In this document: piece by piece, positions 3,225-35,089 of the stretch
Layout of the letters: each line of letters starts with the position of its first letter
Numbering within the stretch: the first letter of the stretch is position 1
DNA from: Bacteroidota bacterium
GTDB lineage: Bacteria > Bacteroidota > Ignavibacteria > Kapaibacteriales > NICIL-2
Direction: 5' to 3'
DNA length: 35,753 bases
Assembly (NCBI GenBank): GCA_019695345.1
Contig: JAIBAE010000045.1
Coordinates: 1-35,753, forward strand
Program-made: the position numbers and the translations under genes
The notes under the pieces: model-generated
What the model was told of the DNA's origin: nothing
Seen by the model: the letters and a program-made list of their open reading frames with translations, nothing else
Database searches by the model: none

Positions 3225-3241
3225 AGTCTTGAAGTAAGTAT

Positions 3242-3310
3242 CTGCTATCGCCTGACCGCACCGCACGGCACACAACAACACACCCGCTATGTGCGGGAAG
3301 GTTCGTTGTG
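3242..3310 (+). repeat. R1 intergenic repeat, left module (copy B)
   Basis: It begins CTGCTATCGCCTGACCGCACC 17 bases after the preceding stop and contains the CCCGC-TATGT-GCGGG hairpin (3283-3297), with outer CACAAC/GTTGTG arms. The part from 3254 is almost identical to copy A at 114-171. Confidence 0.8.
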
Positions 3311-3340
3311 CAAGAATTATAGGGTTATCGTTACAAATAT

Positions 3341-6300
3341 CTATTCATCAAGTTTAATAAACATACTTGAAGTTGTAAGAGTATTTGACTTATACACAAG
3401 ATAATAAGCACCATTAGCAAATGGGCGCATATCTATTTCAATTTGATGTATACCTACGCTCTCTTTTGGATTGTAATATACGCTTGAACTCAATCCACGA
3501 GTATCATAAATCAATAACTCAACGGGTGCTTCAGTTTCTTGATTAATAGTGGCAGTAAAGTAATTAGTAGATGGATTGGGCGATAAGAACATTGAACCTT
3601 TAGGTACCAGGATATCAGTTTTGACATTGGGATCGCACACTCGTTCAATCTGCGTGGGTGTTTCCCATTTTGTGATAAGCCCTGATTCTTCCATAACTAA
3701 AAAATATTCGCTACAAGGATGTATAGCACAGCAAACTATTGAGTGTGAAAACTGCTTTTCAAAAGTAAATTGCTTGATATCAGTATCAAAAATTCGTATC
3801 ACCATGAGTGAATCTTGGTGCGTATCGTAGTGATAATAATTTGCATATAATAGGATGTTGTGTCCATCCGGAAAGAGGTATAAATTGTTGTAGTTACATA
3901 AATCAAACTCTTGTATCTTATTATTAGCATTATAACGGCCGTCTGCACGGACTATGGTTTTAGTTCTATAATCCAGCAACATAGGAGAATAGTAACATTG
4001 TAATGTACTAATGAAAACTGAGTCGTAGGTATTGGTTTGAGGCAAGATATTGTTGTATTTGACAAGATATTTTGAGTACATTGGTATTTTATACACATTA
4101 TTACCTACGAACAAAACTTTGTTCTTGAATATAGCTTCTGTGTATTCTGGGTATGGAAAGAAAATTTGGCTTCCTATAATTGTGGTATCTGTATCAGAAA
4201 TCCTTGCAAATACATTTTTTGTATTAATATAATAACAGATATCTCGATTGGTTTTCCAATCATACCAATATCCTTCAACATCTAAAGAGAAAGCAAAATC
4301 AAATTTATGTTTGAATTCAAAACTGCGGTTGACTAATAAATTAAACTTTGGTGGACAGTATGTACTAGGAGAATAAAGAAGGTGTCCATACCTAAGATTT
4401 TTAATATCGGTTATATTAATATCGTCCGTATAAATTGATATATAGCCTGTATCAGTCTCAAAAAATAACTCAAAGCTATTATTGTATTGTTGTATAGTAA
4501 ACACTCTCTTAGGGTTTAGTTTACTTATACGTTCGGGAGTTGTATAATTAGAGAACGTCTTTTGGAAGTCTATAGTTGAAATATCAGTGATGTAATTCTT
4601 ATCTCTATGGTACAAAAGAACTTGATTGTCTTTGGTAATAAAAATGTTGGTAGGTAACTGGTAGTTTAATGATTGGTCAATTCTATAGAAAGTATAAACT
4701 TTAATATCGGGAGCAGGAGTAAATCTACATTCAACAATTTTGGTTAATAGAACGGAATCGTATAGTACTAAGTTACCTTTTGATACTTCCTGATACATCA
4801 ACAACTTAGCAGAGTACCAACCTTTTTCATATAGTGATACTGTGATAGAATCGTTCAAAGTAACAGATCTAAATGTACGATCGATAAAATTAAATATGGG
4901 AATTGTATCGTTCACATTGAATAGAATTATCTTCATCAAAATGTTCGAGCGAAAACATCCGTTATTAGACAATTTAATAGCAAACTTTAATGTTGTATGC
5001 CCTCCTGCATCTACCACAAAATCATTTGATGTTACCGAAAAGCTAGTAGAAACAATATTTTTAATGTGAATACTAAAATCTCTCCCCCGTACAGTATCAC
5101 CATCAATATCTATGTACCACATTGTAATGATATAAGTCCCCTCATTATCGTAACTATGCTTTGCATCCCTCGCATTAGATGTACTTCCATCGCCAAACGA
5201 CCAAAACCAGGTAACATTGTTATCATATAACATGGTAGTATTTATTAAGCGAACAGTATCTTTTGTTGTAAAGTAACAACTATCTCTATCCGGCGATTCT
5301 GTTTTATACGTGAAAGGTGGTTTAACTATAGGACTAGTAATTTGTGGAATTCTGTATGCAGATAGTTTGTCATAATCCTGTATTATTAGTATAGAGTCAT
5401 CCTGAATCAGGAGCATTCTGTTTTGATAATTTATATCACCATAATGCCATTTTCCACTGTTGAAACTTATGTTTGAGATTGTCTTTTTGGTAGTTGAAAG
5501 AGTATCAATGGTGTTATAAATATAAAGCTTTGTAGTATCTATCGGTATTGAAAACGCGTCATTTGTGCCAATGCTATAGTAAATGTTTTTAGTATTAATG
5601 CTAAAGTTATAATCGAAAATTGGATAGGTTGAAAATTTCCCATTTAGTAACGAAGGAATGTGTACTCTAAAATGTGGTAACATTAGCCAATTTGTATCCT
5701 CAGATATTTCTCCATTATTGATTGCAAAATTGCCTGCTGTTTGAATTCTAGACGTATACACATTTTGAATAAAGAGTGAATCTGGTGAGATGCGCTGGAT
5801 ATAAAATGGACTTACAAATGTATGATTACCTTTTTCGGATATACCACGAATGTTTGAAAAGTACTCAGTAAAATAAGTATCGACATTTTGATAGATTGTT
5901 TTACTATGTTCTACAAATGTTTTCTGAGATTTAAAATCGTAGCATTCTATGAATAATTCAAGGTCTTTGTAATTAGAGCCTGAATGTGTATTGTCATCAC
6001 GTTGTCCTACAAATACTGCAATACTATCAGAAGTAATACCTTGAAAAAACACACCCTTTGTCCATTGGTACGAGATGTTGTTTTTTTGAATGTACAGTAA
6101 AGATGAAGCTATACTGTAATTACATGAATAAAGGTTGCAGTTATTTTGATCGTTTTCTACCACATAGATTACTTCTACTTTATCGTTATATAACTTTACA
6201 GCTTTTGATGCAAACACTTTTCCTGTATCGAGCTGATACTTTTTAATGATTTCCCTAAACAAGGCATTAAAAGATATTGATTTTACGAGTACTCCGGAAT

Positions 6301-6490
6301 TAGCTGAAATAACAAGCAGAGTGTCTGTAGAACTAAGGACTAATAGGAGTTTACTATCGGGGCTACTTGATAGTCCTTGTTTCCACGGAGCAGTTTCTAT
6401 GGGCTTTTCAAATGTCCATAAATGCAATGCTTCTTGCGAGGACGCTGACTTGTAAAACATCACAAGAATAATTATACATAATGTTTTCAT
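3341..6490 (-). CDS. Secreted PKD-domain protein with T9SS type A sorting domain
   Basis: A 1049-residue extracellular protein. The N-terminus is a signal peptide (MKTLCIIILVMFYKSASSQ). The first ~390 residues and ~600-950 are rich in beta strands and repeated aromatic motifs of the kind found in WD/beta-propeller-like surface proteins. A PKD domain lies at ~395-475, with the signature WFWSFGDGS followed by HSYDNEGTYIITM. The last ~85 residues form a type IX secretion C-terminal domain: PNPSTNYFTATI, then VELLIYDTRG, then GAYYLVY. The protein is therefore expected to cross the outer membrane by T9SS and be anchored to or released from the surface. It is a single gene; the VWA gene upstream is on the same strand but 273 bases away. 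Its substrate or binding partner cannot be read from the sequence. It is more AT-rich than the metabolic genes. Confidence 0.88.
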   Translation of the reverse strand: MKTLCIIILVMFYKSASSQEALHLWTFEKPIETAPWKQGLSSSPDSKLLLVLSSTDTLLVISANSGVLVKSISFNALFREIIKKYQLDTGKVFASKAVKLYNDKVEVIYVVENDQNNCNLYSCNYSIASSLLYIQKNNISYQWTKGVFFQGITSDSIAVFVGQRDDNTHSGSNYKDLELFIECYDFKSQKTFVEHSKTIYQNVDTYFTEYFSNIRGISEKGNHTFVSPFYIQRISPDSLFIQNVYTSRIQTAGNFAINNGEISEDTNWLMLPHFRVHIPSLLNGKFSTYPIFDYNFSINTKNIYYSIGTNDAFSIPIDTTKLYIYNTIDTLSTTKKTISNISFNSGKWHYGDINYQNRMLLIQDDSILIIQDYDKLSAYRIPQITSPIVKPPFTYKTESPDRDSCYFTTKDTVRLINTTMLYDNNVTWFWSFGDGSTSNARDAKHSYDNEGTYIITMWYIDIDGDTVRGRDFSIHIKNIVSTSFSVTSNDFVVDAGGHTTLKFAIKLSNNGCFRSNILMKIILFNVNDTIPIFNFIDRTFRSVTLNDSITVSLYEKGWYSAKLLMYQEVSKGNLVLYDSVLLTKIVECRFTPAPDIKVYTFYRIDQSLNYQLPTNIFITKDNQVLLYHRDKNYITDISTIDFQKTFSNYTTPERISKLNPKRVFTIQQYNNSFELFFETDTGYISIYTDDINITDIKNLRYGHLLYSPSTYCPPKFNLLVNRSFEFKHKFDFAFSLDVEGYWYDWKTNRDICYYINTKNVFARISDTDTTIIGSQIFFPYPEYTEAIFKNKVLFVGNNVYKIPMYSKYLVKYNNILPQTNTYDSVFISTLQCYYSPMLLDYRTKTIVRADGRYNANNKIQEFDLCNYNNLYLFPDGHNILLYANYYHYDTHQDSLMVIRIFDTDIKQFTFEKQFSHSIVCCAIHPCSEYFLVMEESGLITKWETPTQIERVCDPNVKTDILVPKGSMFLSPNPSTNYFTATINQETEAPVELLIYDTRGLSSSVYYNPKESVGIHQIEIDMRPFANGAYYLVYKSNTLTTSSMFIKLDE

Positions 6491-6669
6491 AATGATTGAT
6501 TAGATGGTCCAAATAAAGCACAGAATGAACGCTCTTGTTTTATAGTCAAAAATAGTAGAATATGTTGTCCAAAATCTTAGCAAAATCTTAGCAAAGAGTA
6601 ATTTAGTTTGATAGAAGTAAAAAGGTAATGTACAGTGTTGATAAGTACTAATTTGAAAATAATGTAGTC

Positions 6670-6690
6670 CACGATAAACGCTTTATCGTG
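6670..6690. other. Perfect 9-bp hairpin with 3-nt loop
   Basis: CACGATAAA-CGC-TTTATCGTG is a perfect inverted repeat between two minus-strand genes. It lies on the 3' side of the R1 copy that follows the VWA gene. A related CACGATAAA with a degenerate partner occurs in the R1 copy at 15753-15915, so it is probably part of that repeat family. It could also act as a terminator for the upstream gene, but no clear T-tract follows on the minus strand. Confidence 0.55.
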
Positions 6691-6699
6691 CGCGATTGT

Positions 6700-6762
6700 A
6701 CTTTCCCGCAGATGGAGGTTGTGCTTGTATAGAGTTTTGGTGCGGCTTGCGTTAGCAAATAA
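6700..6762 (-). repeat. R1 intergenic repeat, left module, minus strand
   Basis: Read on the minus strand it begins TTTGCTAACGCAAGCCGCACC one to four bases after the stop of the VWA gene and reaches CTGCGGGAAAG about 50 bases later. It closely matches the copy after the FAD oxidoreductase gene (35091-35150). The orientation is again sense with respect to the gene it follows. Confidence 0.65.
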
Positions 6763-10709: not shown

Positions 10710-10726
10710 AATGTAGAGAATAGGTA

Positions 10727-10790
10727 TTTGCTATCGCAGACCGCTCCTATCCTATGCGCTTGCTCAAGCAATGCCATACGGGAAAGCACC
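10727..10790 (+). repeat. R1 intergenic repeat, left module (degenerate)
   Basis: TTTGCTATCGCAGACCGC begins 18 bases after the MltB stop and ACGGGAAAG marks the other end. The interior contains GCTTG-CT-CAAGC. The gap 10710-11191 (482 bases) has no credible gene. It holds this repeat, the hairpins at 10811-10868, an AT-rich stretch and an R2 repeat. Confidence 0.6.
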
Positions 10791-10810
10791 GCCACTATTT
10801 AAAAATATAA

Positions 10811-10868
10811 AAGGACGGAACCTTCCACTATTCCGCCCTTCGTAATGTAACAAACGTTACGTTGTTAC
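10811..10868. other. Two adjacent intergenic hairpins
   Basis: AAGGACGGAA/TTCCGCCCTT (10811-10820 with 10831-10840) pairs with one mismatch. Right after it GTAACAA/TTGTTAC (10847-10853 with 10862-10868) forms a 7-bp stem. An alternative pairing CGTAATG/CGTTACG is possible. There is no U-tract on the plus strand, so this is not a standard terminator. It may stabilise the 3' end of the transglycosylase transcript. Confidence 0.45.
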
Positions 10869-11029
10869 ATGATGCAAAATAAATAAATATGTGTTACAAC
10901 AACTATGTTTTTTTACTGAATATTTATACATAATTGTCTTATTATAATACTATGTACTTACTGTAGTTAGGTTGTGTTTACATTCAGATAATTCTATCTC
11001 TTTTGTATATTGTTGCGACGCTGTATCGG

Positions 11030-11083
11030 TTGGCTCCGCCTGTGTGACGGCGCAGTTAGGTTCGCTTCGGCAGGGGTGGGAAT
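11030..11083 (-). repeat. R2 GC-rich inverted repeat
   Basis: On the minus strand it reads TTCCCACCCCTGCCGAAGCG, then AACTGCGCCGTCACACAGGC, nearly the same as the copy at 24344-24394. It stands out sharply as GC-rich in an AT-rich gap. Confidence 0.65.
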
Positions 11084-12470: not shown

Positions 12471-12525
12471 GTTCCGGTTCAGCGCCGAAGCAACCCTTCT
12501 GCGCCGTCACACGGGCGGAGCAAAC
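12471..12525 (+). repeat. R2 GC-rich inverted repeat (degenerate)
   Basis: The sequence after the DinB stop contains GCGCCGAAGC, then CTGCGCCGTCACACGGGCGG, aligning with the R2 copies at 24344 and 11030. The left arm is degenerate. Confidence 0.5.
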
Positions 12526-12589
12526 CGATGCAGCATCGCAGAAAACAAAAACGATATAAGAAGAATTATAACAATCAAACTCATAACCT

Positions 12590-15700: not shown

Positions 15701-15722
15701 TCATTCTTCTATAAAACATCTA

Positions 15723-15756
15723 AGCCCATGACATCTCGTTATGGGCTTTTTTTTTT
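15723..15756 (+). terminator. Rho-independent terminator
   Basis: The stem AGCCCATGAC (15723-15732) pairs with GTTATGGGCT (15738-15747), with one G-T pair and loop ATCTC. A run of ten T's ends at 15756. It lies 22 bases after the stop of the BNR protein gene and its T-tract runs into the R1 element. Confidence 0.9.
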
Positions 15757-15915
15757 GCTATCGCATTGCCGCACCAAGCGTTCCATTTCAAAAAACCTTT
15801 GCTGTGCGGGACACAACATTCATCCACGATAAACCTGATTCTTTATGCGACGTTCTTTCCGGCAAGCAGAGATTGTTGTATTGATACCATTCGTAGCCGT
15901 CTGGCGATAGCAAAA
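15753..15915 (+). mobile_element. R1 composite element with perfect 12-bp terminal inverted repeats (MITE-like)
   Basis: TTTTGCTATCGC (15753-15764) and GCGATAGCAAAA (15904-15915) are exact reverse complements bounding about 163 bases. Inside are the left-module marks (CCGCACC, TGTGCGGGAC) and CACGATAAA, then right-module marks GTTCTTTCCGGCAAGCAG and CGTAGCC. No coding capacity is present. It would have to be moved by an enzyme encoded elsewhere, if mobile at all. The gap 15701-16034 holds this element, the terminator and the upstream region of the porin-like gene. Confidence 0.6.
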
Positions 15916-17117: not shown

Positions 17118-17133
17118 TTCAGATAATTGTTTG

Positions 17134-17288
17134 TTAACACATACCGCGCCATATCTTGTTGTAAGTCCAAAGCGTCATTCTGCGGAAAAAGTCAGTCGGC
17201 TAAAACCTACCGTTTACCGTGAAGGATACTTCTGGCAAGCAACGTTTGTTATGTTGTTATGGTGTGGTGCCATCCTGCGATAGCAAAC
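17134..17288 (+). repeat. R1-family repeat, degenerate composite
   Basis: The left part, ACATACCGCGCC to TCTGCGGAAAAAG, and the right part, CTTCTGGCAAGCAACG to TGCGATAGCAAAC, match the two modules of the element at 15753-15915. The left terminal repeat is eroded. It fills the gap between the porin-like gene and the convergent methyltransferase gene. Confidence 0.5.
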
Positions 17289-17293
17289 ACACA

Positions 17294-18253
17294 TTATTGC
17301 AGTGAGATGTTGATTGTTTCGAGTTGTTCGGTTACAGTATTAAATATAGGCAGTCCGTTCAGCAACGCTAAACGTTGAACTCCGGAAAGGAATGTCATTT
17401 CGCCGTGTTCGTTACGGCTTTCTCTGAAGCGGGATTCAACGTAGCCCTGTTGCGGAGTTAATGGTTTCAGTTCTTTGAGTTTATCGTTACGGACAAAGTA
17501 CGCGTTGTTTCCCGCGCTGTTACATCCAATAAACGAGTAACCTTTTTCTGCTGCTAAGTGGCAAAGTGCAGCAACGGAGCATCCGCTATACAGCCAACTG
17601 TAATGTGCATCGCGGCGGAAGAAGTCCGTTTTATATGGTACAACCCACGGGTGCTGATAGCCAAACACGCTGTTAAACTCTACAATCATTACAATAGGTT
17701 TAGCTACCGTAATTGCTTTCCAAATCCAATAGTCGTTGCCATCAATATCAATGTGGAAGATGCCAATGTCGCCGGTAAACCCTTTTTGCAGTAAAAGCTC
17801 GTTGATGTTTTCTGCCGTAACAAAAGCATGGGTTACATACAGGTCGTGATTGGCAAAGTTTGCACTGGTTGCAATATGTGCTACGTTATCGGCAGTGCCA
17901 TCCATTACAAAGCCGGACCAGTTATTGTTTTGAAGTAGAAAACGTGTGTTGGACTCTTTGTAATCTTCCACGCCAAATTCTACAAACGTTTTGGATTTGA
18001 AATCGAGATAATTGGCCAGGAATTGTATAATGCCATCGTCGCCAAATTGCGAGAAGACTTTGAATTCTGCATTATGGATGTTTTGGAGAATTTCGGGAAT
18101 GCGGGTTTTATTCCACTCGCTAAACATTTTGGCTTGTAACATCAGTTGATGTTCTGTTTGTGTTTGGCGATAGACTTCGTTTTCTAATAATGTGTGTAAC
18201 TCGTTGGAAATAGTATAAAGGATACTACCAAGAGTTTGTTGTTGAGCTTCCAT
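17294..18253 (-). CDS. FkbM-like SAM-dependent methyltransferase family protein
   Basis: 319 residues, cytoplasmic. After a ~60-residue helical N-terminus, the Rossmann core begins with FSQFGDDGIIQFLANYL. The glycine-containing SAM-binding motif I is TFVEFGVEDYKESNTRFLL (VEFGV at 91-95), with an unusual Val-Glu in place of the extra glycines. Later motifs are GIFHIDIDGNDYWIWKAI (post-motif acidic strand DIDG) and IVMIVEFNSVFG. The C-terminal part carries SWLYSGCSVAALCHLAAEKGY. Related proteins sit in surface-glycan clusters and may O-methylate sugars, but no glycosyltransferase genes are next to it here. It is divergent from the CDF transporter gene with 113 bases between starts. Confidence 0.75.
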   Translation of the reverse strand: MEAQQQTLGSILYTISNELHTLLENEVYRQTQTEHQLMLQAKMFSEWNKTRIPEILQNIHNAEFKVFSQFGDDGIIQFLANYLDFKSKTFVEFGVEDYKESNTRFLLQNNNWSGFVMDGTADNVAHIATSANFANHDLYVTHAFVTAENINELLLQKGFTGDIGIFHIDIDGNDYWIWKAITVAKPIVMIVEFNSVFGYQHPWVVPYKTDFFRRDAHYSWLYSGCSVAALCHLAAEKGYSFIGCNSAGNNAYFVRNDKLKELKPLTPQQGYVESRFRESRNEHGEMTFLSGVQRLALLNGLPIFNTVTEQLETINISLQ

Positions 18254-21935: not shown

Positions 21936-22000
21936 TTCTGCTGTCGCCGGACGGCACCGGGCGTTGTGGTACAAACAACGTTTACATTGCCGGAAATTTC
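21936..22000 (+). repeat. R1 left module (degenerate)
   Basis: TTCTGCTGTCGCCGGACGGCACC begins one base after the barrel gene's stop. The interior has GTTGTGGTACAAACAAC (GTTGT/ACAAC arms) and the end is ATTGCCGGAA. Confidence 0.5.
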
Positions 22001-22091
22001 CTACACAAATACATCTAAGCAATTGAACAGGATAACAACGTGAAATACTTATTTTGTATTTTTACTGCTTATCACAACGAAAGAACTTTAT

Positions 22092-24343: not shown

Positions 24344-24394
24344 TTTCCCGCCTCTGCCGAAGCGCACGCAACTGCGCCGGCACACAGGCGGGAA
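24344..24394 (+). repeat. R2 GC-rich inverted repeat (best copy)
   Basis: TTCCCGCCTCTGCCGAAGCG at the left, AACTGCGCCGGCACACAGGC in the middle and GGCGGGAA at the right; the ends are inverted repeats. The gap 24331-24638 (308 bases) contains this element and two G/C-run hairpin repeats, with no credible gene. Confidence 0.7.
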
Positions 24395-24417
24395 CGCACC
24401 TTCAGTGGCGCGTGTGG

Positions 24418-24470
24418 AATTCCCTCTGTCCTTCGGACATCTCCCTTTATGAAAGGGAGAGAGAGAGATT
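24418..24470 (+). repeat. Intergenic hairpin repeat with GTCC-TTC-GGAC and CTCCCTTT/AAAGGGAG arms
   Basis: Two hairpins in a row: TGTCCTTCGGACA, and CTCCCTTT-AT-GAAAGGGAG. A related composition (CCTAACGG followed by CCCCCTTTT/AAAGGGGG) is found at 32374-32436, so this is a dispersed family. Confidence 0.6.
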
Positions 24471-24501
24471 CTAAACAACATTAAGTAGTTAATTAGTTTG
24501 T

Positions 24502-24549
24502 CCCCTTTTGTAAAGGGGGCGGATTCGAGCGAAGTGAGAATCGGGGGAA
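24502..24549 (+). repeat. Intergenic hairpin repeat CCCCTTTT/AAAGGGG with ATTCGAGCGAAGTGAGAAT tail
   Basis: CCCC-TTTTGTAAA-GGGG followed by GGATTCGAGCGAAGTGAGAATC, which itself pairs GATTC with GAATC around CGAAG. It is similar in design to the repeat at 32374-32436. Confidence 0.6.
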
Positions 24550-24638
24550 TACAAGTCCAATACACTGAGAATGAAACAAACTCAAACCACGCCTGTTGAT
24601 GTGGTAAAGGGTTTAACCACAATTATGGAAAAGTTTAT

Positions 24639-25256
24639 ATGAAAAAGGTTTTGATGTTGGCGTATTGCGTGGCTCTTGTTACGCTTGCTACCTCGTGTAA
24701 TAGATTTTGGCCTACCGACTCTGATGGAGGCACAAAGAACACTACAAGCTCAGATGAGTATTACCCGTTAGCTGTTGGCAACTCGTGGACGTATTTACCA
24801 ATGGAAGGTATCAATACACTTGTCCGTACAGAGCTTAATACTCGGGTAGAATCGGAGAAAAAGGTTGGGAATGCTGTAGAATATACAATGGTTGACTCGC
24901 TTATTAACGGCGACCAAGCAACGGTAACGCGGTATATTTTGCATAAAGAGGGTTCGTTGATTTGGAAAAATCACGAAATGCTTACTGTTACCGATTGGAC
25001 TATTAACTTTGATGCAACGCAAGCAAAACAAGGTGATGATAATTACGGATTTGTTCAGGATAGACCAAAAGAGATAAAAGTTTGGGCCGGTACATTTGAT
25101 AAAGATAATGTTACTATCTTTTTCCCGGCGGCGGCATACGATGGTCTTCCGGTACTTACATTTTCGCGTGGTGTTGGTTTAATGCAGATTCGTCCGCATG
25201 GAATCCCAATGGATTTAACCCGCGCCGTAATTGACGGCAAGGTGATTGGAAAATAA
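24639..25256 (+). CDS. Small outer-membrane or periplasmic lipoprotein
   Basis: 205 residues with a type II signal peptide: MKKVLMLAYCVALVTLATSC, with a lipobox of LATSC and the lipidated Cys near position 20. A short Ser/Thr/Gly linker follows, then a single beta-rich domain starting YYPLAVGNSWTYLP, a motif of a family of lipoproteins common in Bacteroidota/Ignavibacteria. Strands include TVTRYILHKEGSLIWKN and ITIFFPAA-like segments. Function unknown. A five-codon ORF (24625-24642) overlaps its start by ATGA and may couple translation. It ends close to a bidirectional terminator facing the convergent CBS-protein gene. Confidence 0.83.
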   Translation: MKKVLMLAYCVALVTLATSCNRFWPTDSDGGTKNTTSSDEYYPLAVGNSWTYLPMEGINTLVRTELNTRVESEKKVGNAVEYTMVDSLINGDQATVTRYILHKEGSLIWKNHEMLTVTDWTINFDATQAKQGDDNYGFVQDRPKEIKVWAGTFDKDNVTIFFPAAAYDGLPVLTFSRGVGLMQIRPHGIPMDLTRAVIDGKVIGK

Positions 25257-25276
25257 GGAACCAAGTTACATTTCAG

Positions 25277-25334
25277 GACTAAAGTCCATCAGTAGGTTTA
25301 TGGTTTCTTTTTCCCCACGCTAAAGCGAGTGGTT
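25277..25334. repeat. TAAA-loop hairpin repeats (pair)
   Basis: GGAC-TAAA-GTCC (25277-25288) and CCACGC-TAAA-GCGAGTGG (25315-25332) are two short hairpins closing on the same loop. They belong with the larger cluster at 28756-28886. Confidence 0.55.
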
Positions 25335-25377
25335 ACTATCTGAACATCTTAGATGTGTTTTACATAAGATATAAAAT

Positions 25378-25406
25378 AAAACCCCGTTCGTAATGAATGG
25401 GGTTTT
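25378..25406. terminator. Bidirectional rho-independent terminator
   Basis: AAAACCCCGTTC (25378-25389) pairs with GAATGGGGTTTT (25395-25406) through a 12-bp stem with one G-T pair and loop GTAAT. It has T-rich sequence after it on the plus strand and A/T-rich sequence on the other side. It lies between the convergent lipoprotein and CBS-protein genes and can serve both. Confidence 0.9.
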
Positions 25407-25432
25407 GTTTTAGTGCGAAGCTGTAAGGATTT

Positions 25433-25483
25433 TTCCCGACCGGGTTGCGGCGCACCAGGCGCGATGCGGCAGAGGCGGGAATC
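25433..25483 (-). repeat. R2 GC-rich inverted repeat
   Basis: TTCCCGACCGGGTTGCGGCG to GCGGCAGAGGCGGGAA. On the minus strand it starts TTCCCGCCTCTGCCGCATCG, matching the other R2 copies. It sits nine bases past the stop of the minus-strand CBS-protein gene. Confidence 0.65.
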
Positions 25484-26808: not shown

Positions 26809-26976
26809 GAAACTCCAAAAGTACTGGAACATTTTCTTGGTTCGCCCGCACCATGCCACGGTTTAGTAATAACCACACTCTTGCGGGAAAGAGCCTTTAC
26901 GTACTGCCAAATATACACTTCTGCATTGAGCAGAAGAAATTCGGGGGAAAAGATTTGTGGGAGTTGTTGTGTCCGA

Positions 26977-27010
26977 CCTCACCCCAACCCTCTCCGAAGG
27001 AGAGGGAGTT
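26977..27010. repeat. Hairpin repeat CCCTCTCC-GAA-GGAGAGGG
   Basis: CCTCACCCCAACCCTCTCC followed by a perfect 8-bp hairpin. An almost identical copy is at 28702-28735. This motif type is found between genes in many bacteria (general knowledge). Confidence 0.7.
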
Positions 27011-27066
27011 CTTTGAATGATTTTATTTGAATTAGCAAACTGCCTTTGGTAAAAGGGAAGATGTTT

Positions 27067-28590
27067 CTACCGTGAAATGCAGAAAACCTTACTATACGCG
27101 CCTACTTTACATAAGTAAACACCATTATCTAACCACGAAATATCAATGGTAACGGGGTCTGTATTGGTGATATCGCGATGAAGTAATTGCTGGCCGAGAA
27201 GGTTGTAGAGTTCAATTAGAGGTGGTAACTGAAATTCTTGATTCCATGTGAACGTTAAGAATTTATTTTCCTCAAAATCAAATATACTGTCTTTATTACT
27301 TGAATTTTTTATTGGGTTTGAATTCTCATGTACTGACACAAGTTTTCCGGCAGAAAAAATTTTGAAACTGTTAATATCATCTCTTAAGCTATCAATCCAA
27401 TTTCCAGATACAACTAGGTCATTTATGTTGTCGTTATCTATATCTTGAACTTCTTCAATTTCTTGCATGGATAAAGTTGAGAACTGGGCATAGTTTGAAA
27501 TGAGTGGTAGCTGGTTTCCATCACACAATTCTATATTTGATTGTCCAGAATTAATGTTGGGTCTAATTCTTATGTAAAAATTAGGCATACTGCTATTTTG
27601 TTTAATTCTTGGTAATACGCCAACACCCGTAGTACGGTAGTAATGTGTTTTGCTCAATAGTATTATAGTATCATTGCTGATATCGTATACTACCAAGTTA
27701 AAATCATTAAGATCTCCATAGACTGACTCAAACACTAGCCAAAATTGTTTATCTCTTTTGCTGGAGGTTGAAATTGTATTGTATCCCTTGTATGCAGCAA
27801 ACAAGTAGTTGTTTGAAGTCGAGATTATACGCGAGTCTTTCAACTCAAAAGTATAACCGTTAGAAGATTTAGAAAAGGCGTAAAGTCTGTATCCATCTTG
27901 TTTGTCCATAATTCTGTAACGCAGTAACAAGCGTATCTCACCTTGCAAATTTTTATACATGGATATAGGTTGTACAGTTCTATCTGAATTTGTGTAGAGT
28001 TCTGTAGGAAGTCTTACGGAGTCCACCGTAATTTCACTCACATTGTTAGCACCGTACTGAACGTAGGCGAGAATGCTATCCTTTGTAAGTGAAGTATTCC
28101 ACGAAAGAATATCATCGATGTTGTCGTTATTAAAATCTGTGATATAGTCTGGTGTGATACCACAGAATATTGGCTTAGGCTTTGGTGGTTCACCGTTTTG
28201 TATACCAAGATACATATTGCCGTAGTCATCAATGTAGTCTGTAATAGAATCATCATTACATTTAAGTGTTTTGATTCTTGGATTCGGACCTTTGTACTTT
28301 CCCCAATCATTAGTTCCCTCCCATGTGAAAATATTAACGGTATCACCGGGGTAACGTAACTGCCACGTTTTAACACCAGTAGGAGTGCTAATAACCAACA
28401 CGCCTTTACCATGATAAAAGTTATCGAGCCACGTCATGCCGCCGTTATCAAATTGAGAGTATTTAACACCATAACCCATATTATCAGCCCGCCACCATTC
28501 CTGAAGCACAGGTACATCTGTTGTGTTTTGCGCTGTAACTGTTAAAGAGCAAAGTAGAACAAGTAGAATATTTTTTAGATAGTAAAACAC
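27067..28590 (-). CDS. FG-GAP-like secreted protein with T9SS-type C-terminal domain
   Basis: About 507 residues from a GTG start (28590): VFYYLKNILLVLLCSLTVTAQ reads as a signal peptide. The body contains FG-GAP/VCBS-like calcium loops (DFNNDNIDDILSWN, DIDNDNINDLVVSGNW), expected to form propeller blades. The last ~70 residues (LPPLIELYNLLGQQLLHRDI, then LDNGVYLCKV) match a T9SS type A sorting domain. The frame is open further upstream to 28812, but that part translates intergenic repeats (it reads KTPSPSERVGV from the CCTCTCC repeat), so I exclude it. The exact start is uncertain because no ATG is near the signal peptide. An independent secreted protein; its target is unknown. Confidence 0.75.
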   Translation of the reverse strand: MFYYLKNILLVLLCSLTVTAQNTTDVPVLQEWWRADNMGYGVKYSQFDNGGMTWLDNFYHGKGVLVISTPTGVKTWQLRYPGDTVNIFTWEGTNDWGKYKGPNPRIKTLKCNDDSITDYIDDYGNMYLGIQNGEPPKPKPIFCGITPDYITDFNNDNIDDILSWNTSLTKDSILAYVQYGANNVSEITVDSVRLPTELYTNSDRTVQPISMYKNLQGEIRLLLRYRIMDKQDGYRLYAFSKSSNGYTFELKDSRIISTSNNYLFAAYKGYNTISTSSKRDKQFWLVFESVYGDLNDFNLVVYDISNDTIILLSKTHYYRTTGVGVLPRIKQNSSMPNFYIRIRPNINSGQSNIELCDGNQLPLISNYAQFSTLSMQEIEEVQDIDNDNINDLVVSGNWIDSLRDDINSFKIFSAGKLVSVHENSNPIKNSSNKDSIFDFEENKFLTFTWNQEFQLPPLIELYNLLGQQLLHRDITNTDPVTIDISWLDNGVYLCKVGAYSKVFCISR

Positions 28591-28701
28591 GTGGATGTAC
28601 TGGGTGCAGTTATATGTATTATGGTTTACCGACTTACTACAAACTAAGCATAAGTTTTGTAATAGGTGTAGTGATAAAATTTGAATAATAATGTTGTATA
28701 A

Positions 28702-28735
28702 CCTCACCCCAACCCTCTCCGAAGGAGAAGGAGTT
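28702..28735. repeat. Hairpin repeat CCCTCTCC-GAA-GGAGAaGG
   Basis: Second copy of the 26977-27010 repeat, with one mismatch in the stem. The gap 28591-29048 (458 bases) consists largely of stacked repeats: this one, the TAAA/TTTA hairpin cluster and an R2 copy. Confidence 0.7.
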
Positions 28736-28755
28736 TTGTTGTACAGTTTGATAAT

Positions 28756-28886
28756 TGCCGTCTGCTTTAGCTGACGGGTGAAAATTACAAAATACAGATT
28801 GGCTTTAGCCAAAATAATCTACTATCAGCATTTGACTAAAGTCAAACATATCATGCTAACAATTTCCGTCCGCTAAAGCAGACGGC
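28756..28886. repeat. Cluster of TAAA/TTTA-loop hairpins
   Basis: Four short hairpins: CCGTCTGC-TTTA-GCTGACGG (28758-28777), TTGGC-TTTA-GCCAA (28799-28812), TTTGAC-TAAA-GTCAAA (28831-28846) and CCGTCCGC-TAAA-GCAGACGG (28866-28885). The outer two are near inverse copies of each other, so the whole block also forms a large imperfect inverted repeat ending in ATTGCCGTC/GACGGCAAT. Confidence 0.7.
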
Positions 28887-28939
28887 AATTGTTTTGACTT
28901 TTAATGGCTTTGTCCAGCAAAACTCTGCGCTGCTTAACG

Positions 28940-28993
28940 GTTGGCTCGCGCCGGGTCAGCGCGCTGGCGGGTTGCGGCGGCAATGGCGGGAAC
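28940..28993 (-). repeat. R2 GC-rich inverted repeat
   Basis: GTTGGCTCGCGCCGGGTCAG through GCAATGGCGGGAAC. On the minus strand it starts GTTCCCGCCATTGCCGCCGCAACCC, like the copy at 25433. It provides the false ATG at 28941 upstream of the gamma-glutamyltransferase gene. Confidence 0.6.
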
Positions 28994-32234: not shown

Positions 32235-32515
32235 TTTTTGCTATCGCATGACCGCAGCGAACCTCTTGCACAACAAACAACCTTACCTTGCGGGGCAGTA
32301 CACCAACAAAATGAAAATGGTTATCTGACAAGTACTATTGTGTGTTAACTGTAAAGATGATGTTGTATAGTTCTATTCCCCCAGTCCTAACGGACAGCCC
32401 CCTTTTGGAAAGGGGGCAGACGAAGTCGGAGGAATTTGTTACATAGGAAGCGTTCTCTCCGGCAAGTAGTTGCTTGTTGCGTTGTATACGTTTCGTAGCC
32501 GAAGTGCGGCAGCAA
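32235..32515 (+). repeat. R1 composite element interrupted by another repeat
   Basis: The left module TTTTTGCTATCGCATGACCGC starts immediately after the UbiA stop, with TTGCGGGGCA at 32288-32297. The right module GTTCTCTCCGGCAAGTAG to CGTAGCCGAAGTGCGGCAGCAACAAAT lies at 32451-32518. Between them is the CCCCCTTTT/AAAGGGGG repeat (32374-32436). No gene is present in the gap. Confidence 0.6.
32374..32436 (+). repeat. Hairpin repeat CCCCCTTTT/AAAGGGGG nested in an R1 element
   Basis: ATTCCCCCAGTCCTAACGGAC, then GCCCCCTTTTGGAAAGGGGGC, then AGACGAAGTCGGAGGAAT. The ends ATTCC/GGAAT are inverted repeats, and the middle is a strong hairpin. Confidence 0.65.
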
Positions 32516-32522
32516 CAAATGA

Positions 32523-33796: not shown

Positions 33797-35089
33797 ATGA
33801 TTGAATCGTGGGGACGTTATCCTAAAGTTAAACATACTGCCGTGCAAACTCCTGCATGGCTAAGCGATGTGCAAATTGATGCCACACGCAGCAACTTGCC
33901 GCTTGGTCTTGCGCGTAGTTATGGCGATTCGTGCTTAAACGAAAACGGCGCACTTATCTGCACCCGACATCTTAACCACTTTGTTGAGTTTAATAAAGAG
34001 CGTGGTACAATCCGTTGCGAAGCGGGCGTTACGCTTGCCGATGTGTTGGAACTGGTTGTTCCGCATGGATACTTTTTGCCGGTTACGCCGGGAACAAAGT
34101 TTGTTACCATAGGTGGCGCAATTGCCAACGATGTACATGGTAAAAACCACCACGCTGCGGGAACATTTGGTTGCCATGTGTTGCAGTTTGAAGTATTGCG
34201 CTCGGATAACACGCGTATGTTGTGCTCTCCAACCGAGAACGCTGATATGTTCCGCGCAACCATTGGCGGGCTTGGCTTAACAGGCGTTATACTGTGGGCG
34301 GAGTTTACGTTGCTGAAAATTCCAAGCGCGTATATCTTGCAAGAGAATATCCGTTTTAATAATGTGCGCGATTACCTTGTTCACTCACGCGAAAACGACA
34401 AACGTTTTACCTATGTTGTATCGTGGATTGATTGCACATCAACGGGTAACTACCTTGGCAGAGGAGTTTTTACAGGTGGTAATTTCACCGAGTCCGATAA
34501 ACCTGCCGTTACAACCGGTGCCGGAATTCCTTTCCCCGTGGATGCGCCATCGTTTGTGTTGAACAAGCTTACCATAAAAACATTTAATGTGCTGTATTAC
34601 AACAAACAGTACAAAGAACATTCGCAAGCCGTGGTACATTACAATCCATTCTTTTATCCGCTCGATGCCATCCATAATTGGAATAAAGGATATGGTAAAA
34701 ACGGATTCTTTCAGTATCAGTTGGTGATACCGTTTGAGGGTGCATCGGATGCGTTACAAGAAATATTGAAACAAACATCGCGGTTTGGAAAAGCATCGTT
34801 TGTAACTGTGCTCAAAAATTTTGGGGCAATGCGCTCGCCGGGGATGATGTCGTTCCCCAAAGAAGGTGTTACGTTGGCACTTGATTTCCGCAACGATGGT
34901 ACCGAAACCTTACGCTTTATGGACTCGCTTGATAGTATCGTCCGCACAGCAAACGGACGGTTGTATCCCGCCAAAGATGCCCGCATGAAAGGCGAAGACT
35001 TCCGCACGTGGTACCCACAATGGCAGGAGTTTTCTAACTATATCGACCCACATTTTTCTTCGTCGTTTTGGCGCAGAGTAATGGCATAA
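33797..35089 (+). CDS. DprE1-like FAD-binding oxidoreductase
   Basis: 430 residues from ATG 33797 (MIESWGRYPK, the usual family N-terminus). An ATG at 33731 would add 22 residues that look non-conserved and leave only 26 bases to the divergent gene. The N-terminal PCMH/FAD_binding_4 domain has GLARSYGDSCLNENGALI, the FAD-contact segment TPGTKFVTIGGAIANDVHGKNHHAAGTFG and the loop MFRATIGGLGLTGVI. The C-terminal part is the sugar-oxidase/ALO-type substrate domain, ending DARMKGEDFRTWYPQWQEF. DprE1 oxidises the 2' hydroxyl of decaprenyl-phosphoryl-ribose before DprE2 reduces it to arabinose. A dprE2-like reductase is not in the window, so the pathway is only partly visible. The HAD-UbiA gene upstream fits the same pathway. 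Confidence 0.87.
   Translation: MIESWGRYPKVKHTAVQTPAWLSDVQIDATRSNLPLGLARSYGDSCLNENGALICTRHLNHFVEFNKERGTIRCEAGVTLADVLELVVPHGYFLPVTPGTKFVTIGGAIANDVHGKNHHAAGTFGCHVLQFEVLRSDNTRMLCSPTENADMFRATIGGLGLTGVILWAEFTLLKIPSAYILQENIRFNNVRDYLVHSRENDKRFTYVVSWIDCTSTGNYLGRGVFTGGNFTESDKPAVTTGAGIPFPVDAPSFVLNKLTIKTFNVLYYNKQYKEHSQAVVHYNPFFYPLDAIHNWNKGYGKNGFFQYQLVIPFEGASDALQEILKQTSRFGKASFVTVLKNFGAMRSPGMMSFPKEGVTLALDFRNDGTETLRFMDSLDSIVRTANGRLYPAKDARMKGEDFRTWYPQWQEFSNYIDPHFSSSFWRRVMA

Follow-up and report, generated by a model that had tools for sequence, protein, structure and literature searches.

Hairpin-ended units, empty or gene-bearing, as candidate mobile cassettes in a Kapabacteria-related genome

Introduction

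Mobile insertion cassettes (MICs) are known as single cases bearing the ends of a known insertion sequence (IS) family. REPs carry a GTAG- or GGAG-like tetranucleotide; REPINs lack a target duplication, and we know of no REPINs that carry genes. Integron cassettes, including those of CALIN and SALIN, are small, single-gene and accessory, and their sites are conserved in structure more than in sequence, with the attC boxes R'' and R' reading RYYYAAC ... GTTRRRY. DNA uptake sequences are common inside genes.

Features of these and related systems recur in the units described below. In the cited part of the report on the qnrD mic element (PMC3913671), a passenger gene lies within inverted repeats, no transposase is found inside, and movement in trans is inferred. 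REPINs, in the cited section of PMC3116915, are inverted doublets of short hairpin repeats, extragenic and present in hundreds per genome together with RAYT genes; the doublet is the replicating unit, as whole units are here copied end to end. The dif modules, or pdif sites, of Acinetobacter place adaptive genes between inverted sites of alternating orientation in one lineage, according to the cited section of PMC6449649. Bacterial MITEs such as the Correia elements and MITEAba12 are presented in the cited part of PMC10969869 as short, multicopy intergenic elements whose ends are inverted.

We analyzed a window of 35,753 nucleotides (contig JAIBAE010000045.1, taken at its full length), in which a preliminary description had proposed a MITE-like element at 15753-15915. 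Comparison with the remaining genome suggests that this element is the empty form of a larger kind of unit, which can enclose genes.

Materials and Methods

The host draft genome comprises 4.56 Mb in 163 contigs, and the window is contig C56. Orientation, units, and gene content were analyzed in 1.57 Mb, about a third of the genome, consisting of 29 of the 163 contigs that were chosen for R1 matches and are mostly long. Genes were called with a simple hexamer caller written for this analysis, not a published one. Orientation and content counts used modules at E<1e-2, and the comparison of cargo relatedness (65 R1 units) used modules at E<1. Through one window protein, the nearest named relatives were a Candidatus Kapaibacterium MAG (65% identity) and Ignavibacteriota MAGs (43-45%).

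Results

The 12-mer TTTTGCTATCGC at 15753-15764 has its exact inverse GCGATAGCAAAA at 15904-15915, as the preliminary description had stated. With up to two mismatches, 12-mers of this type were found 16 times in the window versus 4.2 expected, and 0 of 100 shuffles reached 16. The 163 nt consist of two inverted copies, head-out, of an end module of ~66 nt, here called R1; the left and right modules reported to recur elsewhere are therefore inverted copies of one module, which is repeated genome-wide. While the terminal 12-mers are indeed exact inverses, the terminus proper is a core of 8-9 bp that edges the hairpin module. Among 45 related R1 end pairs (45 of the 46 pairs sharing 78% identity or more across 80 nt or more of the interior were used), identity was high inward and, from position −2 outward, no higher than between unrelated ends. 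Because this drop lies just outside (T)GCTATCGC, the unit spans about 15757-15911, and the outer TTT/AAA looks like target, not element. The left edge does lie in the T-tract of a terminator-like hairpin, as had been noted (Table 1). An internal stem had also been proposed. For its supposed arm CACGATAAA, no partner was found within the element; this sequence is the inverse of a central motif, TTATCGTG, which is enriched downstream of R1 modules; stems backed by covariation were instead located within each module (Table 1). The element as a whole showed no folding advantage over shuffles (z −0.54 and −0.23), and Rfam at gathering thresholds gave no match in the window and only a tRNA in four 20-kb stretches.

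Next, R1 was followed through the genome. The 11-mer TTTGCTATCGC occurs 382 times (192+190) genome-wide, compared with five (3+2) for a reversed-letter control, and no genome among 40 relatives searched exceeded 12. From outside inward, the module is composed of a T-rich flank, GCTATCGC, two free bases, GA, and a pentamer (mostly CCGCA or CGGCA), followed by a variable stretch of ~36 nt, the complementary pentamer, and GAGAGAAC-like bases. The inner stem is kept by compensatory changes: in an alignment of 59 of the 79 exact 11-mer sites in 828 kb, 95.3% of cells were paired, with 15 double-sided changes versus 3.0 in shuffles (0 of 500 shuffles). The other 20 sites were dropped for having no right anchor match, and two or three of these resemble chance sites within genes. 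A profile search of the 1.57 Mb gave 526 R1 modules at E<1 and 464 at E<1e-3. Searched against 119 genomes of the class with filters that lose weak matches, the R1 model matched in its own genome only, and the exact pattern TTTGCTATCGCNNGACCGCACC was absent from viral contigs. Several R1 modules contain a REP-like hairpin, GTAGGGGCGTATTGCATACGCCC, in the variable loop (L074:1996-2079, −; L076:16072-16155, +; L170:748-829), indicating that another repeat family has inserted there.

A second end module, R2, was reached via homologues of unpaired R1 ends and is present in 191 copies. It is about 70 nt long, its outer end reading TTCCCGC..TGCCGAAGC and its inner end GCGTCGCA, and carries a short hairpin of its own. 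In an alignment of 42 of the 191 modules (40 of the best and two from the window), 99.4% of cells were paired, and 51 double-sided changes were counted against 20.1 in shuffles (0 of 500). Its outer edge is less sharp than that of R1 in boundary statistics covering 127 of the 191 modules. The R2 model, too, matched only in its own genome among the 119 of the class, under the same filters that lose weak matches. The hairpin-bearing ends belong to at least two unrelated families, R1 and R2. Within 270 nt of unpaired R1 ends, the partner core was not enriched, and many of these ends had an R2 partner instead; the idea that they face a degenerate partner was accordingly rejected.

The small non-autonomous family that had been suspected is borne out by 58 empty R1-R1 units in 1.57 Mb with less than 300 nt between the modules and the core GCTAWCGC at both ends, so that further complete copies are plentiful. 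Three pairs of units aligned end to end with unrelated flanks: C142 29250-29478 with 44564-44793 (97.3% over 224), C55 12808-12979 with 17886-18056 (91.0% over 166), and C142 20124-20403 with 27087-27366 (89.1% over 276). All three are pairs of units without genes. Judged by these comparisons, empty units have moved, because homology stops exactly at (T)GCTATCGC and the end-to-end copies are 89-97% identical. The most similar copies share one contig, 5-15 kb apart (C142 20124-44793, C55 12808-18056), which may mean local hopping. As for the features of a MITE derived from a DDE-type IS, inverted termini are present, and neither a fixed-length target duplication nor a parent IS was found: target duplications of 3-12 nt at all offsets were absent over 143 R1-R1, 74 mixed, and 29 R2-R2 units, and in the families searched we recognised no transposase gene that shares these termini.

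Regarding the sites of insertion, a same-strand stop codon was found between 12 nt inside and 60 nt before the core for 217 of 498 anchored R1 ends, with the core G 5-11 nt after the stop codon in 139 of these 217. Among unpaired R1 ends, 125 face a stop and 116 a start, and heads pointing to a gene start are separated from it by a longer distance (medians of about 75-120 nt). As starts and stops are faced equally often, a 3'-end RNA element of single genes was rejected.

Orientation was then analyzed for 682 R1 and R2 modules, which form 280 outward-facing, 269 inward-facing, and 104 same-direction pairs. Alternating adjacencies thus number 549 of 653, compared with a mean of 327 and a maximum of 370 in 2000 orientation shuffles, and alternation is broken by the same-direction pairs, for which further end families might account. 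The outward pairs comprise 155 R1-R1, 47 R1-R2, 36 R2-R1, and 42 R2-R2, that is, 83 of the 280 units have mixed ends. A called gene was absent from 145 outward units; 78 enclose one gene and 57 two or more, so 135 of 280 hold a passenger gene between inverted ends. In contrast, every one of the 269 inward intervals contains one or more genes and is at least 500 nt long. Outward gaps vary continuously in length, from 2 nt up to several kb, and units with gaps below 5 kb cover 297 kb of 1,572 kb. The "MITE-like" label is right but too small for the feature. A plain 163-bp MITE was rejected as too narrow because the terminus is a core-edged hairpin module, about half of the outward-facing units hold genes, and unrelated R2 ends occur.

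Empty and gene-bearing (loaded) units differ in their end types. Excluding ends with an untypable stem, empty R1-R1 units combined a CCGC-type with a CGGC-type end in 35 cases versus 12 with like ends, while loaded ones showed 16 mixed and 32 like-like pairs (Fisher p 8e-5). The mixing in empty units indicates that pairing within each module is kept and that between-module pairing is broken at that position.

Genes shared with a relative are depleted inside units. In the sampled part (800 kb of 2.19 Mb) of a genome from the same family and another genus, tblastn (E 1e-5) matched 29 of 213 genes in outward units below 5 kb. For genes of inward intervals the figure was 211 of 579 (Fisher p 1.2e-10), and for those of same-direction intervals it was 82 of 245; absolute rates are low because of the sampling. 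Proteins of 100-300 aa gave the same picture, with 9 of 119 matched in units and 58 of 228 between units (p 4.6e-5). Pfam matches among 20 cargo proteins included GNAT acetyltransferases, glyoxalases, DUF1761, DUF1572/DinB, an AHSA1 protein, a HAD hydrolase, a DNA methylase, and Fic with KAP NTPase; four proteins were without any match, and a fifth matched nothing but a sorting domain, weakly. Some in-unit genes look housekeeping, such as one for a calcineurin-like phosphoesterase. A unit of ~3.3 kb (L089:16812-19650) holds an N6/N4 DNA methylase gene flanked on both sides by a gene that lacks a Pfam match, perhaps a restriction-modification system, and another of ~2.9 kb (L093:16454-19076) holds genes for a Fic-domain protein and a KAP-family P-loop NTPase. 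Among 70 proteins in 65 R1 units (gaps 250-2000 nt), no two were related at E 1e-4, so that these data contain no instance of a loaded unit having moved. We infer that gene-bearing units move as such because their cargo is accessory in character and their borders are the same.

Further units and ends of both families were identified in the window, as summarized in Table 1. Inside one R1-R2 unit, a 35-nt direct repeat (CCTCACCCC...GGAGAGGGAGTT; 97% alike) at 26976-27010 and 28701-28735 brackets the gene 27067-28590. A 25-nt inverted repeat (CCGTCTGCTTTAGC...) at 28753-28777 and 28866-28890, 96% complementary and 88 nt apart, is a further dispersed palindrome.

Table 1. Units, end modules, and associated features in the window
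Feature	Position	Strand	Details
Empty R1-R1 unit (main feature)	15757..15911	.	Bounds (T)GCTATCGC ... GCGATAGC(A); edge placed by comparing 45 related end pairs
Left R1 end module, CCGC type	15753..15818	+	R1 model E 2.1e-16; stem 15769-15773 with 15805-15809, covariation
Right R1 end module, CGGC type	15851..15915	-	R1 model E 1.8e-15; stem 15895-15899 with 15860-15864, 4 of 5 pairs form
Terminator-like hairpin and T-tract of upstream gene	15722..15756	+	Presumed insertion target; read by eye
Second empty R1-R1 unit	17129..17288	.	Left 17129-17194, weak, E 0.0014; right 17224-17288, E 4.2e-13
R1-R1 unit with single gene	3240..6760	.	R1 ends 3240-3305 (+) and 6697-6760 (-)
Gene in unit 3240..6760	3341-6490	-	Pfam: PKD domains, C-terminal sorting domain
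Chimeric R1-R2 empty unit	10726..11082	.	R1 10726-10790 (+), R2 11011-11082 (-)
R2-R2 unit	24345..25481	.	R2 ends 24345-24415 (+) and 25411-25481 (-)
Gene in unit 24345..25481	24639-25256	+	No Pfam match
R1-R2 unit with gene 27067-28590 (-)	26830..28992	.	Weak R1 E 0.0047, R2 E 7.4e-12; Pfam scan
R1-R1 unit without called gene	32236..32517	.	R1 32236-32302 (+) E 4.8e-17; weak R1 32451-32517 (-) E 0.0011
Unpaired R2 end, next neighbour in same direction	12473..12543	+	E 2e-11
Unpaired R1 end, next neighbour in same direction	21936..22001	+	E 1.9e-10
Unpaired R1 end, degenerate head, near contig edge	100..165	+	E 9.1e-5
R1 end directly after stop codon of gene 33797-35089, near contig edge	35089..35152	+	E 2e-10

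The genome was also searched for candidate enzymes. Matches to recombinases and transposases comprised nine tyrosine recombinases, four Y1_Tnp (two full-frame), and two DDE_1, with none for resolvase/serine recombinase, IS110, or rve. The two DDE_1 loci are without R1 or R2 ends, and no parent IS with the same termini was found among the families searched (resolvase, IS110, rve, DDE_1, Y1_Tnp, and tyrosine recombinases). The RAYT and tyrosine recombinase genes are treated as unproven candidates.

Both full-frame Y1_Tnp genes lie inside R1-R1 units (C123 45704-46829 and C55 101095-104625), where about 20% of genes (213 of 1073 called genes) would lie by chance. The RAYT unit on C123 contains short hairpin repeats of its own, different from R1, which counts against RAYT as the enzyme. 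At L097:5760-6760, the R1-R1 unit with a RAYT-type gene holds arrays of the short hairpin repeats AGCTAYRGAGTAGC and GCTCCGATGGAGC, which are probably the REPs of the RAYT itself.

A gene resembling XerA and integron integrases starts right after an R1 end on C37, at a point where the contig stops before the partner end. It scored 234.6 bits with NF040815 (cut-off 220) and 204 bits with TIGR02249 (cut-off 265). About ten relatives hold homologues above 200 bits, none with an R1 excess, and the flanks of ten homologue loci contained no R1-like core outside its own genome, apart from one chance match inside the gene. That these loci share no R1-like end outside its own genome counts against the XerA-like integrase. 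An attC-like stretch after the integrase was not found repeated in the 1.57 Mb. Downstream of XerA-like integrase genes in two genomes (L170:2032-2180 and L220:2345-2440), we observed a similar imperfect inverted repeat (TTGCRTATATAA ... GTTG..TGCAATG), possibly the recombination site of the integrase itself.

Discussion

We propose, with a probability of roughly 0.6, that the feature is an empty copy of a hairpin-ended, cassette-bearing, non-autonomous mobile unit that is acted on in trans. Such a unit is bounded by two outward-facing hairpin end modules (R1-R1, R1-R2, or R2-R2), and its interior may be no more than a short spacer or may contain genes, singly or several together, which are mostly accessory and can point in either direction. 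The whole unit would insert into T-rich intergenic DNA, very often just past a stop codon, without target duplication. An enzyme supplied in trans would recognise the shape into which the ends fold, perhaps while the DNA is single-stranded.

One alternative is that only a short empty element, a MITE or REPIN, moves, and that accessory genes enter later by other routes at harmless places. End-to-end copies exist only for empty units, no loaded unit was seen twice, and the outward gaps are continuous in length, all of which would fit. Nevertheless, loaded units are not simply filled empty ones, because end-type pairing differs between the two, and we regard this alternative as unlikely. A somewhat better, though still doubtful, candidate is a REPIN-like process, in which a RAYT (a Y1 HUH transposase) would move the units as folded single strands, with loaded units as an extreme form of REPIN. 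The paired inverted hairpin ends match the REPIN description in the cited section of PMC3116915, and the lack of target duplication fits too. The position of both full-frame Y1_Tnp genes in R1-R1 units points the same way. However, these are two genes only, the hairpin repeats in the C123 unit are the more likely substrate of its RAYT, R1 cores are without a GTAG/GGAG-like tetranucleotide, and REPINs are, to our knowledge, not gene carriers. A tyrosine-recombinase system, integron-like or dif-module-like, would explain the ends as folded or paired recombination sites and the units as cassettes. The absent target duplication, the covarying hairpins with a variable loop, and the T-rich flank on both outer sides are consistent with it, as is the R1 end directly preceding the integrase-like gene at a contig end. 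Moreover, inverted sites surround adaptive genes in dif modules as well, in the cited part of PMC6449649. This system is nonetheless improbable: homologues of the C37 gene occur in relatives without R1 excess and have flanks without an R1-like core, the downstream arm of the C37 unit is off the contig, and R1 and R2 show neither attC boxes nor the dif layout as we know them.

Explanations without transposition fared worse. Ends lying a few nt from stop codons and in terminator T-tracts, together with covarying stems, might reflect a regulatory or structural element (a terminator, an insulator, or a 3'-end RNA element) that is selected at gene borders and is not mobile. This is very unlikely, however, as ends lie upstream of starts as often as downstream of stops (116 versus 125 unpaired R1), homology between copies ends at the core, and relatives with the same core genes are without R1 and R2. 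Hundreds of copies of one short word, sometimes as inverted pairs beside terminators, also recall a DNA uptake sequence. That reading is hardly credible: just 6 of 247 R1 modules in the first 828 kb lie inside called genes, and a structured 66-nt module with sharp copy boundaries is unneeded for uptake.

Returning to the proposed cassette-bearing unit, its mobility in one uncultured Kapabacteria-related lineage would, if real, involve several hundred units, about half with genes, as extrapolated from a third of the genome. Gene mobility would then match that of a large chromosomal integron in scale, with dispersed units in place of an array. The exchangeable ends raise the question of whether a recombinase accepts unrelated sequences through a shared fold. 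A tentative extension, which we consider speculative, is a chromosome-wide cassette system in which one enzyme accepts R1, R2, and perhaps further unrelated hairpin families by shape and joins any two of them as borders. About a fifth of the genome would then be filled with units, many with accessory genes, and the system would be the scattered equivalent of an integron. Where such units occur, accessory genes can pass as ordinary unless the ends are known. Open-access literature on Kapabacteria mobile elements and dispersed cassettes yielded no description of such units, which is no proof of absence. The hairpin-ended units may be a previously unnoticed way of moving genes.

Compared with the known systems, the units differ from MICs in number, about 280 in a third of one genome, and in having two hairpin end families, no target duplication, and no IS with these ends among the IS families searched. 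REPINs differ in that the end modules here are ~66-70 nt with a long loop, half of the units contain genes, and the RAYTs adjoin other hairpin repeats; moreover, the GTAG-like tetranucleotide that precedes the short hairpin of a REP is absent from the R1 and R2 consensus. From bacterial MITEs, the units are set apart by the lack of target duplication and parent IS, by exchangeable ends, and by gene-bearing forms. Integron cassettes have one attC each and an attI array, whereas these units have two inverted ends and are dispersed in both orientations with no such array; attC R''/R' boxes were not seen by eye in the R1/R2 consensus. The pdif sites measure 28 bp and combine a XerC with a XerD half in the cited section of PMC6449649, while R1 and R2 are longer, folded, mutually unrelated, and chromosome-wide. 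On this comparison of features, the units would best be described as resembling MICs, REPINs, and dif modules rather than as members of any of these groups.
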